Positions 16,713 to 30,395 of a DNA stretch of 64,000 nt are shown piece after piece; position 1 is the first letter of the stretch, and each line of letters opens with the position of its first letter. A program made the translations under genes and the position numbers. Below the pieces are notes generated by a model. That model worked only from the letters and a program-made list of their open reading frames with translations, was not told the origin of the DNA and ran no database searches. Source of the stretch: Corynebacterium tuberculostearicum (GTDB lineage Bacteria > Actinomycetota > Actinomycetes > Mycobacteriales > Mycobacteriaceae); contig NZ_CP073096.1 of NCBI RefSeq assembly GCF_030503735.1, forward strand, positions 1,488,001 through 1,552,000, written 5' to 3'.

Positions 16713-16976
16713 TTAGCCCCGCCGCAGCACAGATTGCACCTGCCCCGACGCGTTTCGTGAGCGCGCCGGGGCAGCGCCATATCTAGGCCTTTGCGCTGCC
16801 GCTTGCCGACGTCCCACCTGTCCCCGTTCCCTTCGCGCCTCCTGCATGGCCTTATCTGCGGATTTTTCAAGCTCGTCTTGCGCTTTTGCTAGCGTTTTTT
16901 CAAATTCCAGCAGGCGTTTAGCCGTCCTTTCCCGAAAGCCCTGCGCAAACTCCGCAAAATCGTTCTTCATTACCAC
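16713..16976 (-). CDS. Small coiled-coil hypothetical protein, third gene of type VII-like cassette
   Basis: An 87-residue basic protein starting MVMKNDFAEFAQGF. Residues about 8-48 form a charged amphipathic helix likely to be coiled coil (AKRLLEFEKTLAKAQDELEKS), followed by an arginine-rich tail. It overlaps the end of the 578-residue gene by 7 bp, so it is cotranslated with it. I do not recognise a family. By position and shape it could be a chaperone, immunity protein or structural partner of the large protein. Confidence 0.65.
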   Translation of the reverse strand: MVMKNDFAEFAQGFRERTAKRLLEFEKTLAKAQDELEKSADKAMQEARRERGQVGRRQAAAQRPRYGAAPARSRNASGQVQSVLRRG

Positions 16977-18706
16977 TGACCTGCCTTTCGTGCCTTAATG
17001 GATGGTTCTTCTGGCGCGGGACCTGCCTCCGGCTGAGGCGCTGCCTCCGGCTGGGGTGCTGCCTGAGGCTGCGGTGCAGGGGCCGGTTCCGGGCTCGGCG
17101 CAGGTGCTGGCGCTGGTGCAGGAGCCTGTTCGGCTGCCGGTGCTGGGGCTGGCGTCTCCGCTGCACCAGCGGCTTGAAGGTGCGCCACCTTCTCCGGTGG
17201 CGGCGTAGGCTCCTCTACCTGAGAAAGCTCTGGAGGTGGCGTCATGACACCATCGTCACCGGTTGGTTCTGGTTCAGGGCAAGGCTCCGGTTCGGGCTCT
17301 GGCTTAGGCTCAGGGCATGGCTCCGGTTCGGGCTCAGGTACTGGCTCGGGTTCTTGCACCGGACAATCCACTTCGGACATATTCTCCAAACACTGTGCGG
17401 CGCCTTCCATGATGAGGCCCACGCCGACCAAAGCGATTCCGGCACCGACCAGGCCGAGGCTACCGCTACAGGAGGATTCAATCTCACAGTCTTCTGAGCT
17501 GGTCTGGGTAGTATCGACACATTCTTCAGTACTCTCCCCGGTATTCTCTGGGCACAGTGGTTCTTCGCTTGTGGCCGATTCAGAGGCGGGTTCGGTATCC
17601 ATTTCTGGCTTGGGCTTCGGCTCTGGATTAGATTCTGGTTCCGGGCATGGCTCTTCTACCGGTTGCGGCTGTTCCGGTGCCTCCTGCGGCGGGATAATCT
17701 CCGCCTGCGCCGGCCTAGTGGTCTCTACTTCGCGCTCCGACTGTACTGGTCGGTCGGTGCTTGATTGCTCAGTGCATTCATGGCAATGGCACTCAGCCCT
17801 GTGCTCTGATGAGGTCTCCGTGTGCATTTCTGTCTTGGCTGCAGGATCGGGCTCGGGGTCGGGCTCGGGTGTGCTGATTGGCTCCGGTGCGCGACATTCC
17901 TCAGGTTGAGTAGGCGGTGGCGAAGGAGGCGTCGGTTGTGGTGGAACGGAGGTGGCGTGGTGTGATTCCGGCTTGGAATCAGGCTCCGGCATCGGCTTCG
18001 TGGGAGTTGGAGTCTCTGGGCACTTCTCTACGGGTGCGGGGCAGGCATCATCCATGGGCTTCTCCGGCGCAGGGCATTCTTCCGGCATGGGGCGCTCACA
18101 CACGCACTCGCAGCGCGATTCAAACTCGCTATAGCACAACTCGATCGCATCATCGCGGTCACGACAGGTGCTGGCGATATTGTGATTCGTCTCTTCGATA
18201 ACGCGCCCACCGATGGTGGAAAGAATGGGAATAATAAACCTAGCCAGCGGATGTTTGGTAGCAACCATGGACAAGATGTTCAGCAACGGGATGACTGCTG
18301 AGATGAGCTCAGTTAAGGCAGTATCGGAGACATCGACGACGTCAGCAATAGCACCCGAGCATTGCTCCGCCGAGCTGGTCAGGTGTGCGGCATCCTGGCG
18401 GTCAACATCGAAATCATCCTGCACACCGCGCAGATGCTCGCGCATGGCGCCCTGCGCAATCTGGGAATCATCCTGCTGCAAGTAACCCGCTAGGCCAGCC
18501 CCGCCGCCTTTCGGACGGTTCCCGCCCACGGCCGCAACGGTGTTTTTCACCAAATTTTCGGGCGCAATGCCATCAACCGCACCGACTAACTCGCCTAGCA
18601 GATTCATCGGCATGCTGGGGCCCGAGTAGCTGCCCAGGCAGGCGAATTGAAATTGAGAAATAGCGTTAGAGTAGTCCCCCAACAGGGATTTTGTCAGCGT
18701 ACTCAC
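16970..18706 (-). CDS. Cysteine-rich Pro/Glu-repeat protein with two hydrophobic segments, candidate type VII substrate
   Basis: A 578-residue protein that starts at a GTG overlapping the previous stop. Residues 1-125 look helical. Residues about 131-165 are strongly hydrophobic (LTELISAVIPLLNILSMV). Residues 200-410 and 450-570 are low-complexity Pro-Glu and Pro-Ala repeats. Residues 415-438 form a second hydrophobic stretch (LGLVGAGIALVGVGLIMEG). I count 23 cysteines, many next to Pro-Glu repeats, which is unusual for a cytosolic protein and suggests an oxidised extracellular product. There is no Sec signal peptide. The small helical partner upstream and the promoter shared with esxBA suggest export by the nearby type VII system. 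Function is unknown. Confidence 0.75.
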   Translation of the reverse strand: MSTLTKSLLGDYSNAISQFQFACLGSYSGPSMPMNLLGELVGAVDGIAPENLVKNTVAAVGGNRPKGGGAGLAGYLQQDDSQIAQGAMREHLRGVQDDFDVDRQDAAHLTSSAEQCSGAIADVVDVSDTALTELISAVIPLLNILSMVATKHPLARFIIPILSTIGGRVIEETNHNIASTCRDRDDAIELCYSEFESRCECVCERPMPEECPAPEKPMDDACPAPVEKCPETPTPTKPMPEPDSKPESHHATSVPPQPTPPSPPPTQPEECRAPEPISTPEPDPEPDPAAKTEMHTETSSEHRAECHCHECTEQSSTDRPVQSEREVETTRPAQAEIIPPQEAPEQPQPVEEPCPEPESNPEPKPKPEMDTEPASESATSEEPLCPENTGESTEECVDTTQTSSEDCEIESSCSGSLGLVGAGIALVGVGLIMEGAAQCLENMSEVDCPVQEPEPVPEPEPEPCPEPKPEPEPEPCPEPEPTGDDGVMTPPPELSQVEEPTPPPEKVAHLQAAGAAETPAPAPAAEQAPAPAPAPAPSPEPAPAPQPQAAPQPEAAPQPEAGPAPEEPSIKARKAGQW

Positions 18707-19017
18707 TTGCTGCCAGCCTCCCTGCCGCGTGCAAAGGAGCTGCCAAAGGACTCATCAAAATCGGCGAAGGCGCGCACCTGTTCATGAGCGGCGTGGGCGG
18801 TGGCAGATAAGTTATCCAACCGCTGCCCACCACGCTCATGGATGCGCGCCAAGACATTGCGAATACGCTCACCGTGGCCGCCAAAACTACGTCCGGCCGC
18901 CGCCACCGGAAAATTCGGCACCTCAGCCCAGTGGGCGTCGCGTTGTTCGTCGTTATCGGCTACGACCTGTCGTAGTGCGGACATCGCCTCCGAGGGGCGA
19001 AGAAAGACCTCAGACAC
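18703..19017 (-). CDS. Small helical WXG100-sized protein, first gene of the cassette
   Basis: A 104-residue protein from a GTG start (MSEVFLRPSEAMSALRQVV). It is predicted as two helices separated by a glycine-rich turn (GRSFGGHGERI) where WXG100 proteins carry Trp-X-Gly. Near the C-terminus, FADFDESFG has an aromatic-x3-acid pattern like the YxxxD/E export signal. Size, layout and promoter suggest an Esx-like partner for the large protein whose start overlaps its stop by 4 bp. The lack of a true WXG means assignment to the family is inference. Confidence 0.7.
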   Translation of the reverse strand: MSEVFLRPSEAMSALRQVVADNDEQRDAHWAEVPNFPVAAAGRSFGGHGERIRNVLARIHERGGQRLDNLSATAHAAHEQVRAFADFDESFGSSFARGREAGSK

Positions 19018-19053
19018 TGGTGTATTCCCCCAAATCCATATGCGGTAAAAGTG

Positions 19054-19094
19054 CTCACCTTCATTGGACTGGGGATTGCGCCAAATGGTTCCCT
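19054..19094 (-). promoter_or_regulatory. ECF-like promoter block shared with esxBA
   Basis: On the minus strand the block GGGAACCATTTGG is followed after 9 bp by CAGTCCAATGAAGGTGAG. The esxB upstream region has the same two blocks with the same 9 bp gap (29 of 31 block positions identical). GGAAC at 19088-19092 and AGTCC at 19066-19070 are 17 bp apart, which fits an ECF sigma -35/-10 pair. The cassette GTG start lies 36 bp downstream. Confidence 0.65.
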
Positions 19095-19129
19095 CGGATT
19101 ACAAAAATCTTCCGCACCAAGCAGTGCCT

Positions 19130-20473
19130 CTAGACCGAAGAAACGATGGCGGAAAGCCTCCCTGCAACCTTACGGGCTTGCTCCTTGTCCGCTGCCTCTA
19201 CCATGACGCGGAATACTTCCTCTGTGCCAGATGGGCGCAGCAAGACGCGGCCGGTCTCGCCAAGTTCTTCCTCGGCCTGAGCGATGGCTTCTTGTACTTC
19301 GGGGGCATCCATGATGACGCTCTTATCAGAAACCGGCACGTTAATGAGCACCTGCGGTAGCACGGTCATCACCGATGCCAATTCCTTGAGGGACTTTCCA
19401 GACTTTGCCATGCGCGCCATGATGGACAGGCCGGTAAGGGTGCCGTCGCCAGTCGTGCAATCATCCGGCAGCACCACGTGGCCGGATTGCTCGCCGCCCA
19501 AGGAGAAGTCTCCGCGGTTGAGCTCTTCAAGGACGTAGCGGTCACCCACCGCGGTATGGCGCACCTCAATGCCTTGTTCCTGCATCGCCAGCTTCAGGCC
19601 CAAGTTGGACATCACGGTTGCTACCAAGGTGTTATAGCGCAGGTCATTATCGTCCTTCATGCCCACGGCCAACAGCGCCATAATTTGGTCGCCGTCAATA
19701 ACATTGCCCTCGGCATCCACGGCCAGGCAACGGTCAGCGTCGCCGTCGTGTGCGAGGCCCAAATCGGCGCCGTGCTCGACAACGGCCGCCTGTGCCTTTT
19801 CAATATGCGTCGAACCGCAGTCCTCATTGATATTAAAGGCGTTCGGCTTATTGTGGATAGCAATAACCTCAGCACCGGCCGCCTCATAGGCGATAGGAGC
19901 GACCTTGGAGGCCGCACCATTGGCGGTGTCCACGACCACCTTGATGCCGCTCAAATCCGTAGAGACCACTTCCTTCAAGTGATTGAGGTAGCGCTCGCGT
20001 CCGTCTGGGGCCTCTGAGATGATACGTCCCAGTTTGGTGCCAGTAGGTCCGTCCTCAGTGAGGTTTTCCATGGTGGCCTGAATCTGGTCTTCTACCTCAT
20101 CAGGTAGCTTCTTTCCGCCGGCGGAGAAGAACTTGATGCCATTGTCCGGCATTGGATTATGGGAGGCGGAAATCATCACGCCGAGATCCGCACCGTAGTC
20201 ATCCGTCAGGTAGGCAATTGCTGGGGTCGGCAGCACGCCCACGCGGACCACGTCGACACCGCGGGAGGCCAAACCGGACGCAATCGCCGCATCCAGCATC
20301 TCACCAGAAACACGCGGGTCGCGGCCGATGATGGCCAGCGGCTGGCGCTCATAGGATTCACGCTTAGCGGTAAAAACCTCTGCAGCGGCCTGGCCGAGTC
20401 GCAAAGCCAGAATCGGGGTCAGCTTCTTGTTCGCGAGGCCGCGAACGCCATCGGTTCCAAAAAGTCGAGTCAT
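19130..20473 (-). CDS. glmM: Phosphoglucosamine mutase
   Basis: A 447-residue member of the alpha-D-phosphohexomutase family converting glucosamine-6-phosphate to glucosamine-1-phosphate for UDP-GlcNAc. It starts [15 protein letters not shown]. The phosphoserine loop [14 protein letters not shown] (about residue 100), metal loop DGDADRC and phosphate-binding [12 protein letters not shown] are all intact. It follows rplM-rpsI after a terminator, the common actinobacterial order. The cassette promoter lies directly downstream of its stop. Confidence 0.98.
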
Positions 20474-20591
20474 GCAGTCAATTATGCACGTCTGTGCCCA
20501 GCGATTGCATGTTGGGGCGGTTTAGGCGAAATCAAGCTTTTGGTTTATCGACGGACTGAGCGATATTCCTTCCGTTCGCGCTTCCATAAAA

Positions 20592-20630
20592 CGACGAAAG
20601 CCGCCGCCTCCAAAAGGAAGCAGCGGCTTT
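20592..20630 (-). terminator. Terminator after rplM-rpsI
   Basis: On the minus strand AAAGCCGCTGCTTCC pairs with GGAGGCGGCGGCTTT around a TTTT loop and is followed by CGTCGTTTT. It lies 32 bp past the rpsI stop. Confidence 0.85.
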
Positions 20631-20661
20631 CGTAGCGCTTGCGCGCGCAATAAGAGCGAAA

Positions 20662-21204
20662 TTAACGCTTGGAGTACTGCGGTGCGCGACGTGCCTTGTG
20701 CAGACCGGCCTTCTTACGCTCAACTGCACGAGCATCTCGGGTGAGCAGACCAGCCTTCTTGAGGGTGGTGCGGTCAGCCGGGTTGTAAATGTTCAGTGCA
20801 CGAGCGATAGCCAGACGCAGGGCGCCAGCCTGACCGGTTGGGCCGCCGCCGTTAACGGTGACCTTAAGGTCGAACTGGTTCTCGCGCTCCAGCAGGGTCA
20901 GCGGAGTGAGAATATCCTGCTGGTGCAGCTTGTTCGGGAAGTACTCGCCGAACTCGCGGCCGTTAACCACGATCTGGCCGGAGCCAGCAACGAGGCGAAC
21001 ACGAGCGACGGCGCGCTTACGGCGGCCGACGGTCTGGATCGGACCCTCGTGTACCGGAGCGGCAGCCTCGACCTCTGCCTCAGTCTCCGCGTTGGCGCTA
21101 GCCAACGAATCACCGATGGTGTTGGTGAACTCTTCGGTAGCGGCGCTTGCTGCAGCGATGTCAGCAGCGTCGGCTACGTTGTTGTCGATGTTCTGCTCAG
21201 ACAT
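20662..21204 (-). CDS. rpsI: 30S ribosomal protein S9
   Basis: A 180-residue S9. The conserved core begins about residue 50 ([16 protein letters not shown]) and ends in the basic tail RRAPQYSKR that contacts P-site tRNA. The acidic alanine-rich N-terminal extension of about 50 residues is typical of corynebacterial S9. The start overlaps the rplM stop as TAATG, so the two are coupled. Confidence 0.98.
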
Positions 21205-21647
21205 TACTGTGCCACCTGCTTAAACTCGAAGGTTTCCGGCTTCTGGCCGGCGTACGGATGCTCTTCGCCTGCAAAGACGTGCAGCTTCTTGATGGAAGCG
21301 CGGGAGAGCTTGTTGTGCGGCATCATGCCGGCAACGGATTCTTCGATAACGCGGACTGGGTTGGCGTCCAAAGACTGACCCAGGGTCATGGACTTCAGGC
21401 CGCCCGGGTAACCGGAGTGACGGTAGCGCATCTCGCGGCCGCGCTTGACGGAAGAAACGTGGATCTTGTCAGCGTTGATGATGATGACGTGGTCACCAGT
21501 GTCAACGTTCGGTGCGAACTGTGGCTTGTGCTTGCCGCGCAGGAGGTCTGCAACGGTGGAAGCGAGCTTGCCCAGCACCACATCAGTAGCGTCGATGACG
21601 TACCACTTGCGGGTGATGTCACCGCTCTTTGGGTGGAAAGTAGACAA
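21204..21647 (-). CDS. rplM: 50S ribosomal protein L13
   Basis: I place the start at the TTG at 21647, giving 147 residues ([20 protein letters not shown]), the usual corynebacterial length. AAGGAG lies 5 nt upstream. The frame stays open back to an ATG at 21773 that has its own AGGAG, so a 42-residue longer form cannot be excluded from sequence alone. The conserved LRGKHKP and [12 protein letters not shown] segments are present. Confidence 0.95.
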
Positions 21648-21814
21648 TTTGACTCCTTGAAAGTCTGTCTCGGAACTGCCGGCCAGCGCTAAGCATCCAT
21701 TCCCTCCCGTACAGCGGCCGGTGGAGACCTGCAGGGAGCTCTTCGCCAGCTGCTTGCCGACGAGCGAACACATAGGTCTCCTACCCTACTTGCTCACCTG
21801 CCCAAAGACCAAAA

Positions 21815-21857
21815 CACCGAAACCGGCACCTTCCGCAGTTCAAATGGAAGGTGCCGG
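21815..21857 (-). terminator. Terminator after esxB-esxA
   Basis: A perfect 12 bp stem (CCGGCACCTTCC at 21823-21834 with GGAAGGTGCCGG at 21846-21857) is followed on the minus strand by TTTCGGTGTTTTGG. It ends the esx transcript 180 bp past esxA. The rplM promoter must lie between this hairpin and 21647; a weak TTGGTC-N18-TAGGGT candidate sits next to it. The stretch 21858-22035 shows nothing else I can support. Confidence 0.85.
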
Positions 21858-22035
21858 CTCGTGGGTGTGGACTAGAAGAAGTACGACTTGAAAGCTAGGA
21901 AAAGATAACAAAGCGTGTACACGCTCTAGTCTCAGCCGCGGCTGCGGCCGCGTCCGCCCCCTGCCAACCGGATATGGCATGTGGCACCGCAGTCCCGACC
22001 GAGAAAATACGGGAATGGACTCGCAGTGGTGAGGT

Positions 22036-22323
22036 TTAGCCCCAGCTGGCAGCGGCGCGGCGGTTGACGTCGCTCATCGCGTCATTGCCTTGGGAAACGG
22101 TCTTTGAGATGGTGGCGAGCACGGTATTGAGCTCCTGGGATGCCTTATCCCACTTGGCCTGTGCCTGGTTATACGCCACGGCGGACTCGCCTTCCCAAGT
22201 GCTCACCATCGGCTGCAGACGAGCCTTCAGGTCTGCCAAGGTGCTGTTAATGCGACCGGAGGTGGCGTTGATATCGGCAGCGGCGGAAGAAATGGCCCCG
22301 AATTCGTACTTGATCTCGGACAT
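22036..22323 (-). CDS. esxA: WXG100 protein, EsxA-like (ESAT-6 family)
   Basis: A 95-residue helical hairpin protein with the turn motif W-E-G (VSTWEGESAVAYNQAQ). It lacks a Sec signal, as expected for a type VII substrate. It pairs with the WXG100 protein encoded 69 bp upstream, and the two should form the heterodimer exported by EccC. A Shine-Dalgarno (AGAAGGGAA) precedes the ATG. A strong terminator follows. Confidence 0.93.
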   Translation of the reverse strand: MSEIKYEFGAISSAAADINATSGRINSTLADLKARLQPMVSTWEGESAVAYNQAQAKWDKASQELNTVLATISKTVSQGNDAMSDVNRRAAASWG

Positions 22324-22392
22324 GTGGTGGTGGATTCCCTTCTGTGAATCTATAGCGTTTTGGCTGTGGAACGGTGCAGTATGCGGTGTGGT

Positions 22393-22707
22393 TTAGAGGG
22401 CGAGGCCGCCGCCAACGTTGGAAAAGGCCTGGGTGTTTTCTGCTTCCACGTTGTCGAAGTTGTGGGCATTGCTGCGGATATTGTCGGAGATGGAGGCCAA
22501 TGCCTCGCGCAACTGCTGTGCAGAGGTGTTATAGCGCTGCATCAGGTCATCGAAGGAGACCTGCGCCTGGCCGGCCCAACTGCCGCGCACGGAATCAACA
22601 ACACCCTGCAGGCGGGTGAGCTCGCCTTGGACTTCATCATTGGTGTTATCGACCTTGCCGGCGGTGGAAATCATGACATCGGCTTGTGTCTTAAAAGTCT
22701 GAGACAT
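22393..22707 (-). CDS. esxB: WXG100 protein, EsxB-like (CFP-10 family)
   Basis: A 104-residue WXG100 protein with turn motif W-A-G (VRGSWAGQAQVSF). Its C-terminal tail contains F-D-N-V-E, which fits the aromatic-x3-acid export signal read by EccC and identifies it as the CFP-10-like partner. It is the first gene of a two-gene operon with esxA. Its 5' region has the shared ECF-like block and a small stem-loop. Confidence 0.92.
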   Translation of the reverse strand: MSQTFKTQADVMISTAGKVDNTNDEVQGELTRLQGVVDSVRGSWAGQAQVSFDDLMQRYNTSAQQLREALASISDNIRSNAHNFDNVEAENTQAFSNVGGGLAL

Positions 22708-22756
22708 AAGAGTGCGCCCCTCCTTAGGGCGGGTGAGATAGTAAGTGTTTCCCCCG

Positions 22757-22780
22757 AAAAAGCAACTGCGTTTCGCAGCT
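22757..22780 (-). other. Stem-loop with T-run in the esxB leader
   Basis: On the minus strand AGCTGCG, loop AAA and CGCAGTT form a 7 bp stem followed by GC and TTTTT. If the shared promoter is used, transcription starts about 10 nt before it. It is too early for a classical attenuator and more likely a 5' stabilising hairpin. A TTCGGGGGAA element follows directly. Confidence 0.4.
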
Positions 22781-22787
22781 GTGCTTT

Positions 22788-22827
22788 CTCACCTTTATTG
22801 GACTGAGTTTTCGGCCAAACGGTTCCC
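22788..22827 (-). promoter_or_regulatory. ECF-like promoter block upstream of esxBA
   Basis: On the minus strand GGGAACCGTTTGG, then 9 bp, then CAGTCCAATAAAGGTGAG. GGAAC (22822-22826) and AGTCC (22800-22804) are 17 bp apart. The same arrangement occurs at 19054-19094 before the three-gene cassette. The esxB start is 80 bp downstream. Confidence 0.65.
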
Positions 22828-22849: not shown

Positions 22850-23974
22850 CTATTTTTTGACTAAGCTTTCAGTAGCCATGCGGCAGGCTGCCTTTTGTAC
22901 AGCGTTGGCATTGTGGCGAGTGTGGCAGCCCACGGACATTTGATGTCCGCGGTCCTCCCAAGTAGTCCACTCCACCAATGAGCCGTCTCCGGGATCTTCG
23001 GTATAACTCAGCCGGCCAGCCTTTTCGGTGGCCTCGCGAAGGTCTGGGTCTTCGTCCACTTGAGCGTGGATTTCTTTAAAAAGGGCATCAGCCGGAACGT
23101 TAAACATTTCATCCGCTGCTAAAAGGATGCGCAGGTTGGGATCCTCACCGGTGGCAGTAACTAGGCCATCTTCGACCTTGGTGTGAAATCCGCTAGGTAC
23201 AACCACGGACATTCCCTCGACGTCGAGGTGCTTCTCCCCTGGGTTTAATTTTTCGCTGCCAGGTTTCTGTGCACTTGGCGTTTCGGATTCTAGCGAAGCG
23301 GGCGCGGACTCTGGGGTGCTATCGCGCCCGGGATCGGCCGCGCGTGGTTGCGGGCGCGAGGACTCTGGAGCGGCATCGTCGTTGCTTGATGCTTGGGCGC
23401 CGATAGCCCACCAGGAAGCCCCGGCTACAGCAATGATGACCACTGCAATGGCCACGTGGAAGATATCGATAGCTCCGAGCCAACCGCGCAGACGATCAGA
23501 CCAAGTAGGCGCAATTGGCTCTTCATGCACAGGTGCTTCCATCACCGTGGTGGGTGGAGCCGAGTCAGTGGACTGGGCAGTTGGATGCGGCGATGGAGCT
23601 GCTGTGTATCGTGCAGCCAACGGAGAGATAGCTGGTTCTGGGTCGACAAGGCGTACCCCAGTTACCTCCAATTGCCGGCAGATGATGGTTGTGGCTTCTT
23701 GCGCGATATCGGTGCCAGAAGTATCTGCAACCACGCAAGCTTCTACTTCCGGCCAGGATGGCCCAGCCATCTTGGATATCTGGTCCATGACTTGGCCTAA
23801 GGCCCAGCCTTCCACAATGCCGGTTCCCGGCAGGTCATAGCGGTAGACCGTTTCGGGACCTTCAAAGATAGTGGCCGCATCCAGGATAGTAACCGTAATC
23901 GGTTCTGCACTGGCTAGATCTCCATTGGAGGTAGGGGGCTCGCTGTGCGGATCGGCGCTCAGGTGGGTGGTCAT
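22850..23974 (-). CDS. Type VII secretion-associated protein (Rv3446c family)
   Basis: A 374-residue protein with an N-terminal cytosolic domain (about 1-160), one membrane helix (about 171-194, IFHVAIAVVIIAVAGASWW), a Pro/Ser/Glu linker and an extracytoplasmic domain (about 240-374). This matches the actinobacterial type VII secretion-associated family named after Rv3446c. Its ATG abuts the eccC stop (TAAATG), so it is cotranslated with the secretion ATPase. The precise role of the family is not established. Confidence 0.82.
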   Translation of the reverse strand: MTTHLSADPHSEPPTSNGDLASAEPITVTILDAATIFEGPETVYRYDLPGTGIVEGWALGQVMDQISKMAGPSWPEVEACVVADTSGTDIAQEATTIICRQLEVTGVRLVDPEPAISPLAARYTAAPSPHPTAQSTDSAPPTTVMEAPVHEEPIAPTWSDRLRGWLGAIDIFHVAIAVVIIAVAGASWWAIGAQASSNDDAAPESSRPQPRAADPGRDSTPESAPASLESETPSAQKPGSEKLNPGEKHLDVEGMSVVVPSGFHTKVEDGLVTATGEDPNLRILLAADEMFNVPADALFKEIHAQVDEDPDLREATEKAGRLSYTEDPGDGSLVEWTTWEDRGHQMSVGCHTRHNANAVQKAACRMATESLVKK

Positions 23975-26900
23975 TTACTTCTCTCCTTCTGTGTACACTG
24001 CTTGGGCAATGCCGAGGTTTTCGCCGCGGATGCTCCATTGGCCACGGCCGGGTGGTTGATGGCTGGGTTTTAAGCCAAAGATGGTGCCTTCGTCCCGGTC
24101 GGCGTCGAAAAGCAGCAACGCTGGCTGAAGATCACGCACGGCGGAGAAGAACTGGCCAAAGAGTGCTCGCCCGATGCCGCCGGATTTGCGGGCGATGACT
24201 AGATGCAGGCCGATGTCGCGGGCGTGAGGGAGCAGCTCCAGGAGAGGCGATAAGGCGATATCGCTCAACAGATCAGCATCGTCAATGACCAGGTAAATAT
24301 CTGGGCCCTCCCACCAATCCCGCGCGGCAAGCTGCGCTGGCGTAATGTCCGGACCTGGAAGACGGGATTCCAGCGTGCGGACGGTATCTAGGATGGTCTC
24401 CTGGACGCTGGACTGTGTTGCGGCGTAGGCGGCCACCATGTCTTCGTCCAAGGTTCCCAAGTGGGCGCGGCGCTGATCGATGACCACTAGGCGCGCGTCT
24501 TTGCGCGCGAAGCCACTAATCCCGCGCATGATCTGCGCCAGGAAGGTGGATTTGCCACACCCCTGCGCGCCGATTGCCACGAGGTGCGGCTCGCGAGACG
24601 GATTCCACGTCAGCGTATCGAGGTCACGCCCACCAATGCCCCAGGCAATCTCTCCAGCGAGTACCTCTCCTTGGGCTGCAAGTGCGCCTGGGGTGAGCAC
24701 TGCGGGCAGCATTTTCAAGCTCGGAACTGGGTCGGCCGCAGCATGGACGCGACAAATATGGGCGATGTCTTGGTTAGAAGTGCGGGCCAAGAGCATGTTC
24801 TCCCCTGCCGAAGTGAGCCCGCGCCCTGGCGCGCTGGGGAGCTTTTGCTGCAGCTTGCGGTCAATGAGCGAATCCAGGGCTTCGCCTAAGCGCAATTCGA
24901 GGCGGTTGGCAATGAGATCGCGGATAGCGGGGCGCATCGTGGTCCACCGCGAGGTGGCAATAACTACATGCACATGGGCGGAGGCGCCATCCGCAACGAT
25001 CTCGGTGACCTTCTCCGAAAGATCTTCAAACTCTGCGTTCGAGGTTCCTATATGGTGCCAACCATCAATAACGAGGAAGGTTGCACGTTGTTCTGGGCGG
25101 CGGATAAACCCTGCTACCTCGTCCACGATGCGGCGCACCTTCTCGCCTTCCTCGCGCCCGGCTACACCCGATACGTGGGGCAAACGGTCCAAGGACGCTA
25201 ACTGTCCGCCGCCAAGATCGATGACGTAGAAGCGCGCCTCCCGGGGACTATGCCGCAACGCCAGTGCGGAGACGATGGTGCGCAGCGCGCTCGATTTGCC
25301 GGACTGCGGGCCACCGCACAGGGCCATATGTCCGCCGTGCTGGGTGAAATCAATAATCAGTTCATCCTGGCGTTGGTAGTACGTCCTATCGATAATGCCG
25401 ATGGGGGCGAGCAACTGGCCTTGGTCTGCTGCGGTCGAGGGCGCACGCGCGTCATGCGCGGCAGAAAGTCCCGGCAACGCGGATAGTTCAATGACCGGCG
25501 GTAGCGGCGGCAACCAGATGCGGTGGGCCGACTGCCCGCGCAACTGGGCTTCTTGTGCGGCGGCACGCACGACCTCAGAAAGCACCGTAGTGGATTCATC
25601 GAGAACCACCTCCGAGCCGGCATCTTCTACCTCTTGCGCCCAGCCATGAAAGAGCTGCACACGGCCACTGGGCAAAGCACTGTGGCCGTCTAAAGAACCG
25701 CTGGCTAGCGCCCGGCGCGGCAAAGGACCAGAAACATATGAGGCTTGGAAGCGGGTAAGTGCTTCGGCATCGGACTTGAGGTAGCCCGCGCCGGGTTGGC
25801 CGGGCAAATGGTAAGCATCGGTCACGCCGAGCACCTGGCGGGATTCCGCCGAGGAGAAGGTTTTCAGGCCGATTCGGTAAGACAGGTGGGAATCCAGCCC
25901 CCGCAATCGGCCTTCCTCGAGCCTTTGGGAGGCTAAAAGCAGGTGCACGTGGAGACTGCGTCCCAAGCGGCCGACGGCAACGAAAAGTTCCGCAAAGTCT
26001 GGGTGCTGGCCCAAAAGCTCCGAGAACTCATCGACGACGATAACTAAGGCTGGCAGTGGCCCGTGCTCATCCACTGCGGTGGCGGAGGCATTGTATTCGC
26101 CAACGTTGGCAAAATTCCCGGCGGTGCGCAGGAGCTCTTGCCGGCGGTTCATTTCACCGGAAATGGCATCATACATGCGCTCTACCAGAGTAGATTCCTC
26201 CTCCAGGTTGGTAATCACCGCGGAGGTATGCGGCAGGCGATCACAGCCTAAGAAGGTCGCACCGCCTTTGAAATCCACCAATACGAGGTTGAGCTCGTCT
26301 GGGCTATGAGTGGCGGAAAGCGCGGTCACTAGGGTGCGCAGCAACTCAGATTTTCCGCTGCCCGTCGCACCAATGCACAGGCCGTGCGGACCCATGCCGC
26401 CGTGCGCGGATTCTTTTAGGTCCACCGTGACGGGCTGGCCTACCGTATCGATGCCAATGGGCACCATGAGGCGTGCCGATCCTTCTCGACCCTGCCACAT
26501 TCCGCTAGCAGCCAGTTCTTCTACGTCGCGGTAGCCTAAAAGCCCCATGAGGTCGGTACCGCGGCGGCCGGCGGTGCTATCGGGGCGTCGGAAAGCGGCC
26601 ATGCTACGCGCGAGCAACGTAGAGGAAGGCGCGCTCATGCCATCTGGGGCTCCGAGCACTTCTACGCCGGCTGCGGTAGCCACCTGCAGCTCTTGTCCTG
26701 CTACGAGGCACAGGCCTTCGTGCTCCGCGCGCACTCCCAGGGCAGAAGACGGCGCGCCGCCGACCTCGATGATGGTGGTGTAGGAATCATCGTGAAAGAA
26801 ATTCTCAGTACCGGTGGTCAATACGCCATCGACCACGAGGATGCGAAAGCGCGCCTTTTCCGGCTCGCGGGCATGCGGTAGCCACTTCAGCCACTCCCAC

Positions 26901-27697
26901 TGGCCGCCGGTGGCTTCGATGCCGCAGGTCTCTGGACCATGGGCTAAGGCTAACTGCAGCACCATCGCGCGCACCATATCGCGCGCGGGGTCCTCAGACT
27001 CGCTGTTGCGCGCGCATGCGCTTCCGGAAACGGACAGGAAGCGAAACGCCTGTAGTTGAATGACTACTGGCATATCGGGCACGGTGCCTACCGCCTTGAT
27101 GGTCTGGCGCATGCTTACCGCACACACTGGATCCAGATCCTCAGTCGCGCCAGAATCCGGCACGTTGATGGGCGTGCACAAGGTGGTGGGACCAGTTCCC
27201 ACGCGAACTTCGAGGGCATCCGGATCATCGGGTCCACGCTCCCACATGCGACGCGAGCCCACCATCACGCTCAACTCCCCCGGTGCGGGGTGGCGATAGG
27301 TCTCATGCGCGCGCTGCGCGGCCGCATTCCGCAGCGCCTTTTCCCGCAGAGCTTTGATGTGGCGCAGGTAGGTGCGCCGAGTCTCATCCGGATCTTGTCC
27401 GCCGTTATTGGGCCCAAACATCATGGCCATGCTCGCTAGCATCATCAGCGGAAACATCAAGGCCATAGGGCTAATCTGGCGCGAGCTTCCCGCACCCAGC
27501 ACCATAAGGGCTACCATGCCGAGCATCGCCGCAATCATCACCACCGGAAGAAGCAACCGTACCAGCGGCACCGGTTGCGGGCGCACCGCCTCTGGAACCT
27601 CCTCGGCCTCTATGCTGCCGGTGGGCAGCGGTGGTGCTGTATCCCGCAACGGCATGGTCAACGGCTCGATCACGCGGGTCTCCCCGATCCCAAGCAT
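23975..27697 (-). CDS. eccC: Type VII secretion ATPase EccC (fused EccCa/EccCb)
   Basis: A 1,240-residue FtsK/SpoIIIE-type ATPase with two N-terminal membrane helices (about 43-68 and 76-95), then three ATPase domains in one chain. Walker A motifs are at 443-450 (GATGSGKS), 795-802 (GGPQSGKS) and 1043-1050 (GAQGCGKS). Matching Walker B strands are VIVVDEFSE, FLVIDGWHH and YLVIDDADLL. All three P-loops keep the lysine and serine. Domain 1 powers export and domain 3 normally binds the EsxB tail. It is divergent from eccD across 152 bp. Confidence 0.96.
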   Translation of the reverse strand: MLGIGETRVIEPLTMPLRDTAPPLPTGSIEAEEVPEAVRPQPVPLVRLLLPVVMIAAMLGMVALMVLGAGSSRQISPMALMFPLMMLASMAMMFGPNNGGQDPDETRRTYLRHIKALREKALRNAAAQRAHETYRHPAPGELSVMVGSRRMWERGPDDPDALEVRVGTGPTTLCTPINVPDSGATEDLDPVCAVSMRQTIKAVGTVPDMPVVIQLQAFRFLSVSGSACARNSESEDPARDMVRAMVLQLALAHGPETCGIEATGGQWEWLKWLPHAREPEKARFRILVVDGVLTTGTENFFHDDSYTTIIEVGGAPSSALGVRAEHEGLCLVAGQELQVATAAGVEVLGAPDGMSAPSSTLLARSMAAFRRPDSTAGRRGTDLMGLLGYRDVEELAASGMWQGREGSARLMVPIGIDTVGQPVTVDLKESAHGGMGPHGLCIGATGSGKSELLRTLVTALSATHSPDELNLVLVDFKGGATFLGCDRLPHTSAVITNLEEESTLVERMYDAISGEMNRRQELLRTAGNFANVGEYNASATAVDEHGPLPALVIVVDEFSELLGQHPDFAELFVAVGRLGRSLHVHLLLASQRLEEGRLRGLDSHLSYRIGLKTFSSAESRQVLGVTDAYHLPGQPGAGYLKSDAEALTRFQASYVSGPLPRRALASGSLDGHSALPSGRVQLFHGWAQEVEDAGSEVVLDESTTVLSEVVRAAAQEAQLRGQSAHRIWLPPLPPVIELSALPGLSAAHDARAPSTAADQGQLLAPIGIIDRTYYQRQDELIIDFTQHGGHMALCGGPQSGKSSALRTIVSALALRHSPREARFYVIDLGGGQLASLDRLPHVSGVAGREEGEKVRRIVDEVAGFIRRPEQRATFLVIDGWHHIGTSNAEFEDLSEKVTEIVADGASAHVHVVIATSRWTTMRPAIRDLIANRLELRLGEALDSLIDRKLQQKLPSAPGRGLTSAGENMLLARTSNQDIAHICRVHAAADPVPSLKMLPAVLTPGALAAQGEVLAGEIAWGIGGRDLDTLTWNPSREPHLVAIGAQGCGKSTFLAQIMRGISGFARKDARLVVIDQRRAHLGTLDEDMVAAYAATQSSVQETILDTVRTLESRLPGPDITPAQLAARDWWEGPDIYLVIDDADLLSDIALSPLLELLPHARDIGLHLVIARKSGGIGRALFGQFFSAVRDLQPALLLFDADRDEGTIFGLKPSHQPPGRGQWSIRGENLGIAQAVYTEGEK

Positions 27698-27787
27698 GCC
27701 TTAATACCTCCCCCGAGCCACGCGCCAAGCGCCCTTGGCCCCCTGCCAAGATTCCCCGCGCTGCGGTGGACACGTCGCCTCTAGTAA

Positions 27788-27802
27788 GCCACAATATGTG
27801 GC
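27788..27802. promoter_or_regulatory. Palindrome in the eccC-eccD divergent promoter region
   Basis: A perfect inverted repeat GCCACA-ATA-TGTGGC lies in the middle of the 152 bp between the divergent eccC and eccD starts. Its position suggests an operator acting on both arms. No regulator can be named. Confidence 0.4.
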
Positions 27803-27849
27803 ATTGGGCAAGGGGGACGCCCACAATCCATTCAAAGTTCGGGGGAATC

Positions 27850-29277
27850 ATGACTACTGCTACGGCGCACCACCTGCGCCTTACCATCCGCATACACGCC
27901 GGCACTTTTCACAAAGAAGCAGACGTGGCGCTGCCGCTAAGTTCTAGCGTGGGCGAGCTTTTGGCCGAAATCACGGACTTGGTGGACGCTCCCACCATTT
28001 CCGAGCCTTGGCGTGCCAGCACTGTTTCTGGCCGCGCCATCGATCTCACCGCACCGCTGGCCGCCACTCCGCTCACGGAAGGCGCAATTCTTGTCCTGAG
28101 CCCGCGTGAGCGCCGACCCGCGCCCGTAATCCGGGATGCCGCAGAATCCCTCGCCGCCGCGGCCGAAGAGGATTCTACTGCCGCTCTTCCCACCGTCTGG
28201 GCATGGGCGGGGCTGCTTGCTGCTTTCATCTTGGCCCGGGCTTCAGCCCCGCCTATAGCAGCCTGGGCGGCTTTGTCCGTCGGTGCCTTCTTGCTAGCGC
28301 TGTGGACTCGGGCGCTTTCGCTAGTACACCTCACCTTGGCGGCCGGCATGGTGTGCGGTTGGGTGGCAATTTCGCCCGCGCTTGGCGACGTCCCCTTCGC
28401 CGCCCTAACTGCCAGCTCCACCCTCCTCCTTGTTCAGCTTGCCTGCCACGTCACCAGGTTGAGTACGGTGCGCACCACCGCAGCAGTGCTCACCGTAGCG
28501 GCGCTTTTATTGGTTGCAACCCTCGGCTATCTGCTGCCGGGTCTCGGTACGGGGCTGCACACCAGTCATGGTACGGCGGCCGCCGCGTGCACCATCATCG
28601 CAGGCATCATTCTGTTGGCCACAGCGCCAGCGGCAAGCATCGCCACTGCCGGTCTCAAGGTCCCGCAATTGCCCACCGCCGGCCAAGATCTCGCGGTATC
28701 TGATGCCCTACAACCAGATGTGGATACCCGCGCGCAGCGGGCCGGGCGCGCCTACGAGGGAATATGCTGTGGCCTTGCGCTCTGCCTCATTCCGGCTCTT
28801 TTCGCCCTCTCGCTTACGGGTAGTGGCGCGGCTCTTTCGCGGACCAGCGGTGCCCCTGATTCTCTCGCCGAATACATTGCGGTGCTCTTTGGTACCCAGC
28901 ACACCGGCCTAGGATTCGTCCAAGCGCTGTGCGTTACCGTCGCGGGGGCCGTGGTGATGCACGCCGCTCGACACGGTCGTGCGCTGGCTAGTTGGGCGCT
29001 GATGCTGCTTGCCATCGCCTCGTGCCTTGCAACCTGCTTGTGCGCTACCCACGCCGTGGCGGATTCGGGGCTTGTGGCTTCTTGGGCACCGGCTCTCGTC
29101 TCCGGCCTGGTCTTGGCAGCGATGATAAGTGCCCCGCTGTGGGCGCCCAAGGTTGCTGAATTGGAGCCCACCACTATTGCTTGGTTTGAACGCATCGAAT
29201 CGCTAGCCATTGCCGCTAGTCTTCCCTTGGGCTTGCACCTTGCGGGTATCTTCGTGCTTATTAGGGGGTTGGGATGA
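27850..29277 (+). CDS. eccD: Type VII secretion membrane channel protein EccD
   Basis: I place the start at the ATG at 27850 (MTTATAHHLRLTIRIHAG) behind a TTCGGGGGAA element. The open frame runs further upstream but across the promoter region. The 475-residue protein has an N-terminal ubiquitin-like YukD domain (about 1-90) and then about eleven hydrophobic helices (from residue 117). Both are defining for EccD, the multi-spanning core of the secretion pore. Its stop overlaps the mycP start (ATGA). Confidence 0.95.
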   Translation: MTTATAHHLRLTIRIHAGTFHKEADVALPLSSSVGELLAEITDLVDAPTISEPWRASTVSGRAIDLTAPLAATPLTEGAILVLSPRERRPAPVIRDAAESLAAAAEEDSTAALPTVWAWAGLLAAFILARASAPPIAAWAALSVGAFLLALWTRALSLVHLTLAAGMVCGWVAISPALGDVPFAALTASSTLLLVQLACHVTRLSTVRTTAAVLTVAALLLVATLGYLLPGLGTGLHTSHGTAAAACTIIAGIILLATAPAASIATAGLKVPQLPTAGQDLAVSDALQPDVDTRAQRAGRAYEGICCGLALCLIPALFALSLTGSGAALSRTSGAPDSLAEYIAVLFGTQHTGLGFVQALCVTVAGAVVMHAARHGRALASWALMLLAIASCLATCLCATHAVADSGLVASWAPALVSGLVLAAMISAPLWAPKVAELEPTTIAWFERIESLAIAASLPLGLHLAGIFVLIRGLG

Positions 29278-30395
29278 TACGCTGCCGATTTCCTGCCGTT
29301 CACGTAGGCCGAAGTCGTACTCTCTCCGTTTACGCGGCCGCCGCGATGCTGCCTGGTGTCGTGCTGGCGGCTGTAGCTACTTCCGCACCGAACGCTGCTG
29401 CCCGCGAACCGGATCACGAGTGCGCGACCGCGCATGCCTCACCGCTATCGCCTCAGCCCAACGAAGATCAGCGCGATTACCGGGCTCGCCTCCATTCCTT
29501 TGCCACTGGTGAAGGCGTAAAGGTAGCCGTGATCGATACGGGTGTGGAGCCCCACGACCAACTGCGGAATCTTAGCGGCGGCGCAGACCTCGTCGCCCCA
29601 GAGGATCCCGAACCACACCGCGATTGCGACTTGCACGGAACCGTAGTGGCCGGTGTCATTGCGGGCCACGATATAGGAATCGCCCCGCGGGCAGAGATCT
29701 ATGCCGTGCGCCAGACCAGCGCGCATTACCGCAAAGAGAAAGAAGAAAGCACCACTGGTTCGCTGGATACCTTGGCCCAGGCGATTGATGACGCCGCCGA
29801 TGCCGGCGCCCGCATTATCAATGTCTCTGTGGTTTCCTGCGTCCCACCGGATGTGGCCGCGCAGGTGGATACCTCTCGGTTGGACGGTGCCTTAGCGCAC
29901 GCGGAGAACTCCGGAGCGCTGGTCATTACTGCTTCTGGCAATGCCTCTTCTGGCGGATGTGAAATGGGTGACCGCGTCTTTCCAGCGGATTCGCCTACGG
30001 TGCTTTCGGTGAGTGCCCAAGCGGATTCTCATGAACTCGCTGACTACTCTCTGAATTCGGCCGAAGGTCCCCAGCTTGCCGCGCAAGGATTTGTGCCACT
30101 TGCTCTAAACCCCGCAGGAGGCTGGGCCGATGGCAAGGAGGGCGCTGATGGCACTGCACAGTTCCATGGCACGTCCTTTGCTGCGCCGGTGGTCAGCGGC
30201 ACGGCTGCATTGCTGGCGCAGCGCTTTCCCAACGATAGCCCGGCTGCGCTCCGCGACCGATTGAAAGACGCCGCGCAGCCGGGGCACGGATTCATCGACC
30301 CGCTTACGGTGCTCACCCATGTGGAATCAGCTTCGGGCATTGACACCAGGGCGATGGTGTCTGAGTTCATGACATATTTGACAGTCTGTGCCTGA
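29274..30395 (+). pseudogene. mycP: Mycosin protease MycP, 5' part, anchor lost through IS insertion
   Basis: The frame encodes a subtilisin-like mycosin with a signal peptide and an intact catalytic triad: Asp88 (AVIDTGV), His121 (DLHGTVVAG) and Ser301 (FHGTSFAAP). After residue 361 an IS481-family element at 30358 replaces the native tail with 12 IS-encoded residues and a stop. The native last 40 codons, holding the C-terminal membrane helix, survive beyond the element at 31806-31928. The 373-residue product could still fold as a protease but would be released rather than held at the ESX pore. The intact gene would encode 401 residues. Confidence 0.92.
30346..30357. repeat. Left target-site duplication of the IS481-family element
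   Basis: CCAGGGCGATGG ends directly before the element and recurs at 31795-31806 directly after it. Joining the two sides at this repeat restores the mycP frame, which supports both the boundaries and a recent insertion. Confidence 0.85.

Follow-up and report, generated by a model that had tools for sequence, protein, structure and literature searches.

A stretch of 64,000 nucleotides from the skin bacterium Corynebacterium tuberculostearicum (contig NZ_CP073096.1, positions 1,488,001 to 1,552,000; the whole stretch is called the window in the following) carries the gene pair esxBA and a cassette of three overlapping genes next to glmM, both of which are preceded on the minus strand by nearly the same two-block element. 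The initial annotation regarded these elements as promoters of an extracytoplasmic function (ECF) sigma factor and the cassette as a type VII substrate operon co-regulated with esxBA. The locus raises the question whether the elements are promoters at all, which sigma factor would read them and which genes they would bring under common control. As judged from sequence, we consider it fairly probable that a single ECF sigma factor uses both as promoters, with the SigM encoded beside trxB as the likeliest candidate, and that its regulon extends over much of the genus.

A shared element upstream of esxBA and the glmM-linked cassette

The element GGGAACCRTTTGG-N9-CAGTCCAATRAAGGTGAG occurs at two exact sites in the window, both of them on the minus strand. 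The esxBA site (22788-22827) has its −35 GGAACC at 22821-22826 and its −10 CAGTC at 22801-22805, and the cassette site (19054-19093) has the corresponding motifs at 19087-19092 and 19067-19071. Direct comparison bore out the previously noted identity of 29 of 31 positions, made up of 12/13 in the first and 17/18 in the second block, together with the 9-bp gap and the distance of 17 bp from GGAAC to AGTCC at both sites. Of the original coordinates those of the esxBA site were exact, while the end of the cassette site had been placed one base too high, at 19094. With up to three mismatches allowed, the two-block motif was absent from 100 dinucleotide shuffles and was present in the host genome (2.5 Mb) only at these two sites. 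Since their 60-nt flanks are unlike (14/60 nt identical on each side), the pair is not part of a longer copy. The TTTGG portion of the match is confined to the C. tuberculostearicum group; elsewhere the spacers of the two sites diverge. The bare ECF geometry was rejected as evidence for promoters, because GGAAC-N15-19-GTC matches the window seven times against 9.1 expected, i.e. at chance level. By itself such geometry proves nothing, and the case for promoters is made by conservation.

Conservation was followed with glmM (19130-20473, minus strand), the gene upstream of the cassette promoter, as anchor. A first set comprised 80 other Corynebacterium genomes, taken from 200 that had a match. 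A second, overlapping set held the best 80 of 145 loci, 79 with Corynebacterium titles and one from a Mycobacteriaceae metagenome-assembled genome. In the first set 78 of the 80 genomes had a loose pattern (GGAAC-N15-18-NGTC) no more than 300 nt downstream of glmM, and 70 had a strict one (GGAAC[CT]-N15-17-[ACG]GTC[CT][AG], within 220 nt), whose count was 0/80 when the opposite strand of these windows was scanned. In the second set GGAACC-N16/17-[ACG]GTC preceded esxB in 58/79 and followed glmM in 57/73 testable loci, 50 loci having both sites, and control windows inside glmM yielded the element in 1/824. At these 50 loci the spacer lengths of the two sites agreed in 46 cases (shuffle mean 38.0) and the −10 bases in 45 (shuffle mean 36.1), in shuffles that ignore shared ancestry. 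A GGAAC-type −35 and a GTC-type −10 at fixed spacing are found at orthologous places, and this conservation over much of the genus bears out the ECF-type promoter common to esxBA and the cassette.

Beyond the genus, the analysis covered 29 of 60 genomes from the order. GGAACC-N16-CGTC was located 4-13 nt after glmM in 4/6 genomes of the same family, in each case followed by a gene of 93-113 amino acids and an overlapping large gene. The other 23 genomes gave a single loose match, 248 nt downstream of glmM. Genes of 103-117 amino acids and larger open reading frames (ORFs) also follow glmM, without the promoter, in other families of the order (L294, L299, L300, L303, L311), and these pairs suggest that a glmM-linked cassette is of older origin.

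When scanned at fixed spacing, G056 and G026 gave 3-mismatch matches only, with 1 match against 7 in the control for G026. Loss of the regulon was rejected for G026, because its spacers are longer by one base, both at the recA site and at a candidate upstream of glmM. A clean co-loss of ESX-4 and the promoter was rejected as well, since EccC homologues are encoded in 33/33 genomes searched.

With regard to the leader of esxB (22710-22790), a short inverted repeat AGCTGCGAAACGCAGTTGCT was observed, and the stretch GGGGGAAACAC resembles GGGGGAATACAC ahead of the start codon of the cassette.

Genes preceded by the element

GGAACC-N15-16-CAGTC has seven exact matches in the host genome, and in each case an ORF begins 36-120 nt from the first base of the motif. 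A scan of 18 genomes for GGGAACC-N15-CAGTCCAATA with up to three mismatches yielded 178 matches compared with 56 in a backwards control, and the flanks of part of the matches listed were fetched, among them 67 sites with at most two mismatches each. Nine recurring families are preceded by 57 of the 67 sites. The most frequent is a second cassette, consisting of a small protein and an NlpC/P60 hydrolase (10 sites; NLPC_P60 E-value 1.1e-24), followed by a CpaB-like SAF protein (9 sites; SAF 4.4e-8, CpaB TIGR03177 48 bits, below the cut-off of 71), a GmrSD/HNH protein with a hydrophobic N-terminus (8 sites; GmrSD_C 2.1e-9, HNH_4 4.4e-6) and esxB (8 sites). An unknown protein of roughly 205 amino acids and the glmM-linked cassette of the window type, assigned by place, account for six sites each, recA for four, and a DNA-3-methyladenine glycosylase (Adenine_glyco 1.1e-63) and an AbiEi-like protein (AbiEi_4 0.018, a weak match below the cut-off) for three each. 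Neither the family of about 205 amino acids nor the small protein of the second cassette matched a Pfam or NCBIfam model, and a wide protein search with the latter returned six close relatives only, one of them named hypothetical.

Three of these families, esxBA and the two cassettes with 24 sites, fit type VII secretion system (T7SS) substrates, while the rest have DNA-related, envelope or unknown functions. Thus, a promoter shared by esxBA and the cassette stands, but the co-regulated unit is wider than the type VII substrate operon initially proposed. A literature search of partial journal coverage revealed no such regulon in Corynebacterium.

At 34/67 sites an ATG or GTG of an ORF of at least 50 codons lies at motif offset 36 or 37, which is where ECF-dependent transcription would start, so that these mRNAs would be leaderless. 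The information content of the motif at the 67 sites does not count as evidence of conservation, because it partly reflects their selection with the same pattern. Several good sites without a nearby start codon (L169, L170, L181, L212, L218) share a stretch like AATAnGGnTTnGGGnTTTT just downstream and may reflect small RNAs or chance. Some of these sites are directed against the 3′ end of recR, or point away from DUF222/HNH-type genes, with the genes named by eye. Further single sites were observed with one mismatch ahead of a methionine-synthase-like gene in G138 (L171:292-2601; a ligA-like DNA ligase gene begins further downstream, both genes being read by eye) and about 155 nt ahead of a putative xseA-like gene, for the large subunit of exonuclease VII, in G102 (L220:1499-2905).

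The element also reaches genes of DNA metabolism. It lies 65-135 nt before the recA match in 18/30 genomes, compared with 0/30 on the opposite strand, and a nineteenth genome (G083) has a recA site with one change in the −35. Upstream of comM it was found in four of the 30 genomes (G102, G009, G094, G060), where the gene order is yraN-comM-dprA-xerC, ComM and XerC being read by eye. In G060, the one genome tested, the YraN and DprA models scored below their cut-offs. When genomes were scanned with N15-16 spacers and NGTCYAA, G102 gave 20 matches against 0 in the control, 17 of them with CGTC, and G159 gave 9 against 2, all with CGTC.

Candidate sigma factor and proposed function

Seven matches to Sigma70_r2 were obtained in the host genome. 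The 182-amino-acid ECF factor encoded beside trxB has SigM as its best model (NF007225; 148 bits, below the cut-off of 190, with 111 bits for the next model). In its −35 and in the GTC of its −10 the element fits the M. tuberculosis SigM consensus, GGAAC..CGTC. By our own E-value cut an orthologue-level SigM match is present in 39/40 genomes, all 40 giving some match. The co-occurrence survey took in SigM and SigC; as SigC was found in 16/16 genomes, co-occurrence with the regulon did not single out one ECF factor. Overexpression of SigM strongly raises esxU/esxT in M. tuberculosis (PMC8593097), and its loss lowers the esx-4 genes 2-4 fold (PMC10117145). In C. glutamicum, SigD (GTAAC, GAT) and SigH (GGAAT/C, GTT) recognise other −10 sequences, and the SigC regulon is a separate one of respiratory genes (PMC6338062). 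SigM is most likely the factor that would read the element.

According to the mechanism that we propose, RNA polymerase with this ECF sigma factor would read GGAACC-N16/17-[A/C/G]GTCYAA and start about ten bases downstream of GTC, yielding leaderless mRNAs at about half of the examined sites, while esxBA and the cassette would retain a leader. An envelope or contact signal would free the sigma factor, and the regulon would then switch on the ESX-4 substrates, the glmM-linked cassette, the small-protein and NlpC/P60 cassette, the GmrSD/HNH nuclease and the CpaB-like SAF protein, together with recA in many species. ESX-4 would export the Esx pair and the products of both cassettes to the envelope. 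There the wall hydrolase would open the peptidoglycan, the nuclease would process DNA, and RecA (plus DprA and ComM in four genomes) would protect or recombine the incoming DNA.

With the mycobacterial SigM/ESX-4 regulon the putative regulon shares a GGAAC −35, a −10 containing GTC and the esx genes of an ESX-4-like locus. It differs in its usual −10, which is AGTC, in the absence of window sites before eccC, eccD and the mycosin gene, and in the promoters of recA and yraN-comM-dprA; we know of no link of recA or dprA to mycobacterial SigM. According to a review, the genes that SigM regulates on contact in M. smegmatis encode the ESX-4 apparatus together with a cell-wall hydrolase and a nuclease (PMC9514802). 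The corynebacterial set is of similar composition, with esxB at 8, the NlpC/P60 hydrolase cassette at 10 and the HNH protein at 8 of the 67 sites. Moreover, ESX-4 is required in recipients of conjugal transfer, in which SigM activates it (PMC10906988). Because of this likeness, with recA as an addition in many species, our preferred interpretation of the gene set is an envelope and DNA-receiving programme of the SigM type, centred on ESX-4.

A further step, which we put forward tentatively and would not call probable, is a dedicated corynebacterial programme of DNA acquisition under a SigM-type factor. ESX-4, the hairpin-led cassettes and the exported NlpC/P60 and nuclease proteins would act outside, and RecA, with YraN-ComM-DprA in one group, would act inside. 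Secretion-assisted DNA uptake and recombination would then form one regulon, inherited from an ancestor shared with mycobacterial conjugal transfer. Natural competence regulons offer a partial parallel in placing recA, plus comM and dprA in four genomes, under one alternative control, and in the CpaB-like SAF protein; the comparison covers recA (18/30) and yraN-comM-dprA (4/30). A report of Corynebacterium transformation was not found in the literature search, whose journal coverage was partial. ESX-4 is regarded as the ancestral type VII system, and M. smegmatis needs it as a DNA recipient. A small regulon of similar composition, to which recA and in some species dprA are added, has a clear promoter and is conserved over much of a genus that includes non-pathogenic, readily cultured species; it provides a short gene list for asking whether ESX-4 serves DNA exchange. 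It would place likely secretion cargo, a nuclease, a wall hydrolase and, in many species, recA under an apparently single control, and through it the uncharacterised glmM-linked cassette becomes part of this question.

Several observations weigh against a SigM-read, genus-wide regulon of this kind or against its DNA-receiving role. To our knowledge no DNA-transfer phenotype has been described. The host sigM directly adjoins trxB (L124:1213-1230) with no anti-sigma ORF between them, an order that differs from the mycobacterial one, and none of the seven exact host sites precedes sigM. The backwards control in the host genome also gave seven matches, whose positions were not seen, and 10 of the 67 fetched sites precede none of the nine families. 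The shuffles of the paired sites take no account of shared ancestry, recA has no site in 12/30 genomes, the comM site (4/30) is set against 2/30 on the opposite strand, and the N15-16/NGTCYAA scan gave 0-2 matches in each of the other 7 of 9 genomes, in six of them below the control. G056 has an orthologue-level SigM match, yet no site after glmM or before recA, and a comparison of SigM residues with the A/C shift of the −10 revealed nothing clear among three CGTC genomes. For M. tuberculosis, activation of eccC4 and mycP4 by SigM has been reported (PMC10117145), and the counterparts of these genes in the window lack the element. In C. glutamicum the consensus sequences of SigM and SigH are described as seemingly very similar (PMC6338062), which is partly at odds with a SigM that reads GTC, and the T7SS is reported to be Fur-regulated and linked to iron (PMC12607788).

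These last points bear on the reading that another ECF factor (SigH, SigE, SigC or SigD), or several overlapping ones, uses the element to control a set of envelope or oxidative stress genes that has no role in DNA exchange. We regard it as unlikely. SigC is 70-90% identical in 15 other genomes searched and would be a possible stable reader, C. glutamicum SigH tolerates GGAAC at −35 (PMC6338062), and the T7SS genes of that species respond to H2O2 and iron (PMC12607788). The GTC core, however, is unlike the −10 of SigH and SigD and the SigC regulon is a separate respiratory one, as described above (PMC6338062), whereas it is SigM that governs ESX-4 genes in mycobacteria (PMC10117145, PMC8593097, PMC9514802). 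Much less probable, to the point of being negligible, is that the two window sites are alike only through recent duplication or gene conversion, with no co-regulation of the cassette. Within the C. tuberculostearicum group the match does include TTTGG in the spacer and GGTGAG in the start region, but the flanks are alike at only 14/60 positions on each side, and across the genus −35 and −10 are kept while the spacers differ and the same element stands at other loci. The genus-wide pattern already contradicts recent copying.

The main functional rival to a DNA-receiving programme is interbacterial antagonism with self-protection, or a nutrient programme, in which ESX-4 would export the NlpC/P60 and nuclease proteins as effectors and RecA and DNA repair would shield the producer. 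NlpC/P60 and HNH domains suit secreted effectors as well, and the DNA glycosylase and the weakly matching AbiEi-like protein, with three sites each, fit self-protection. Among the genes of the fetched flanks we recognised none for immunity, though no search aimed at such genes was made, and the M. smegmatis regulon of like composition is tied to DNA receipt (PMC10906988, PMC9514802). We hold this alternative to be possible but rather doubtful.

In G061 (L322:1705-2322) the ORF directly upstream of sigM looks by eye like a second GmrSD/HNH-type protein.

The cassette, its neighbours and related loci

Three overlapping ORFs of 104, 578 and 87 amino acids on the minus strand (16713-19017) make up the cassette, as described initially, and their products have relatives at 95-97% identity in C. 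kefirresidentii and C. marquesiae. Gene 1 (18703-19017) encodes a predicted two-helix hairpin (predicted local distance difference test, pLDDT, 94.2) of about 100 residues, i.e. of PE/Esx size. PE25 superposes on the model with a root-mean-square deviation of 1.9-2.0 Å over 80-83 residues, but its Z score is tied with those of many unrelated hairpins. A predicted helical hairpin is thus what gene 1 has in common with the secreted PE/PPE and Esx pairs. Nevertheless, membership of the WXG100 or EspC families was rejected, because at E ≤ 0.01 none of 40 members of the protein-1 family matched WXG100 (PF06013) and none matched EspC (PF10824). The proposal of a WXG100-sized helical protein therefore stands with respect to predicted hairpin, size and a larger overlapping partner gene, but not with respect to these two families. 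Gene 2 (16970-18706) encodes a helical N-terminal domain, a long Pro/Glu/Cys-rich part and a conserved ARKAGxW end. Gene 3 (16713-16976) overlaps gene 2; its product is coiled-coil-like by eye, and a profile search with it gave sub-threshold helical matches only.

The place of the cassette presumably corresponds to Rv3440c-Rv3439c beside ESX-4 of M. tuberculosis, which we take to encode a small and a large Ala/Pro-rich protein directly after glmM (mrsA). We know of no third gene of 87 codons at that locus. Given this assumed correspondence, the cassette is probably not unknown but only uncharacterised. Mentions of Rv3440c and Rv3439c in the accessible parts of the literature were judged incidental.

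C. glutamicum, like the window, has a single ESX locus, with a T7SS implicated in iron uptake through ExsI. There Fur is reported to control a promoter ahead of eccB, unlike the system of the window, and the accessible part of that account mentions neither a T7SS sigma factor nor a glmM-linked cassette (PMC12607788).

The neighbouring genes constitute an ESX-4 locus, with eccC, eccD, mycP and an esx pair beside rplM-rpsI-glmM; EccC, RplM and RpsI were named from sequence and not by a profile model. Both members of the esx pair were confirmed as WXG100 proteins, namely the esxB-like gene at 22393-22707 (PF06013 E-value 1.7e-20, TIGR03930 1.4e-22) and the esxA-like gene at 22036-22323 (5.4e-20 and 1.2e-23), both on the minus strand. 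Upstream on the same strand lie a gene for a T7SS-associated member of the TIGR03931 family, which takes its name from Rv3446c (22850-23974; E-value 4.3e-54), and the gene for the putative EccC-type ATPase of the ESX-4-like system, placed by sequence and position (23975-27697). On the plus strand follow eccD (27631-29277 as listed, the true start probably being later; TIGR03920 E-value 1.9e-43, above the cut-off) and the gene for a mycosin-like protease (29274-30395), which reaches 241.5 bits with TIGR03921, below the cut-off of 278.75.

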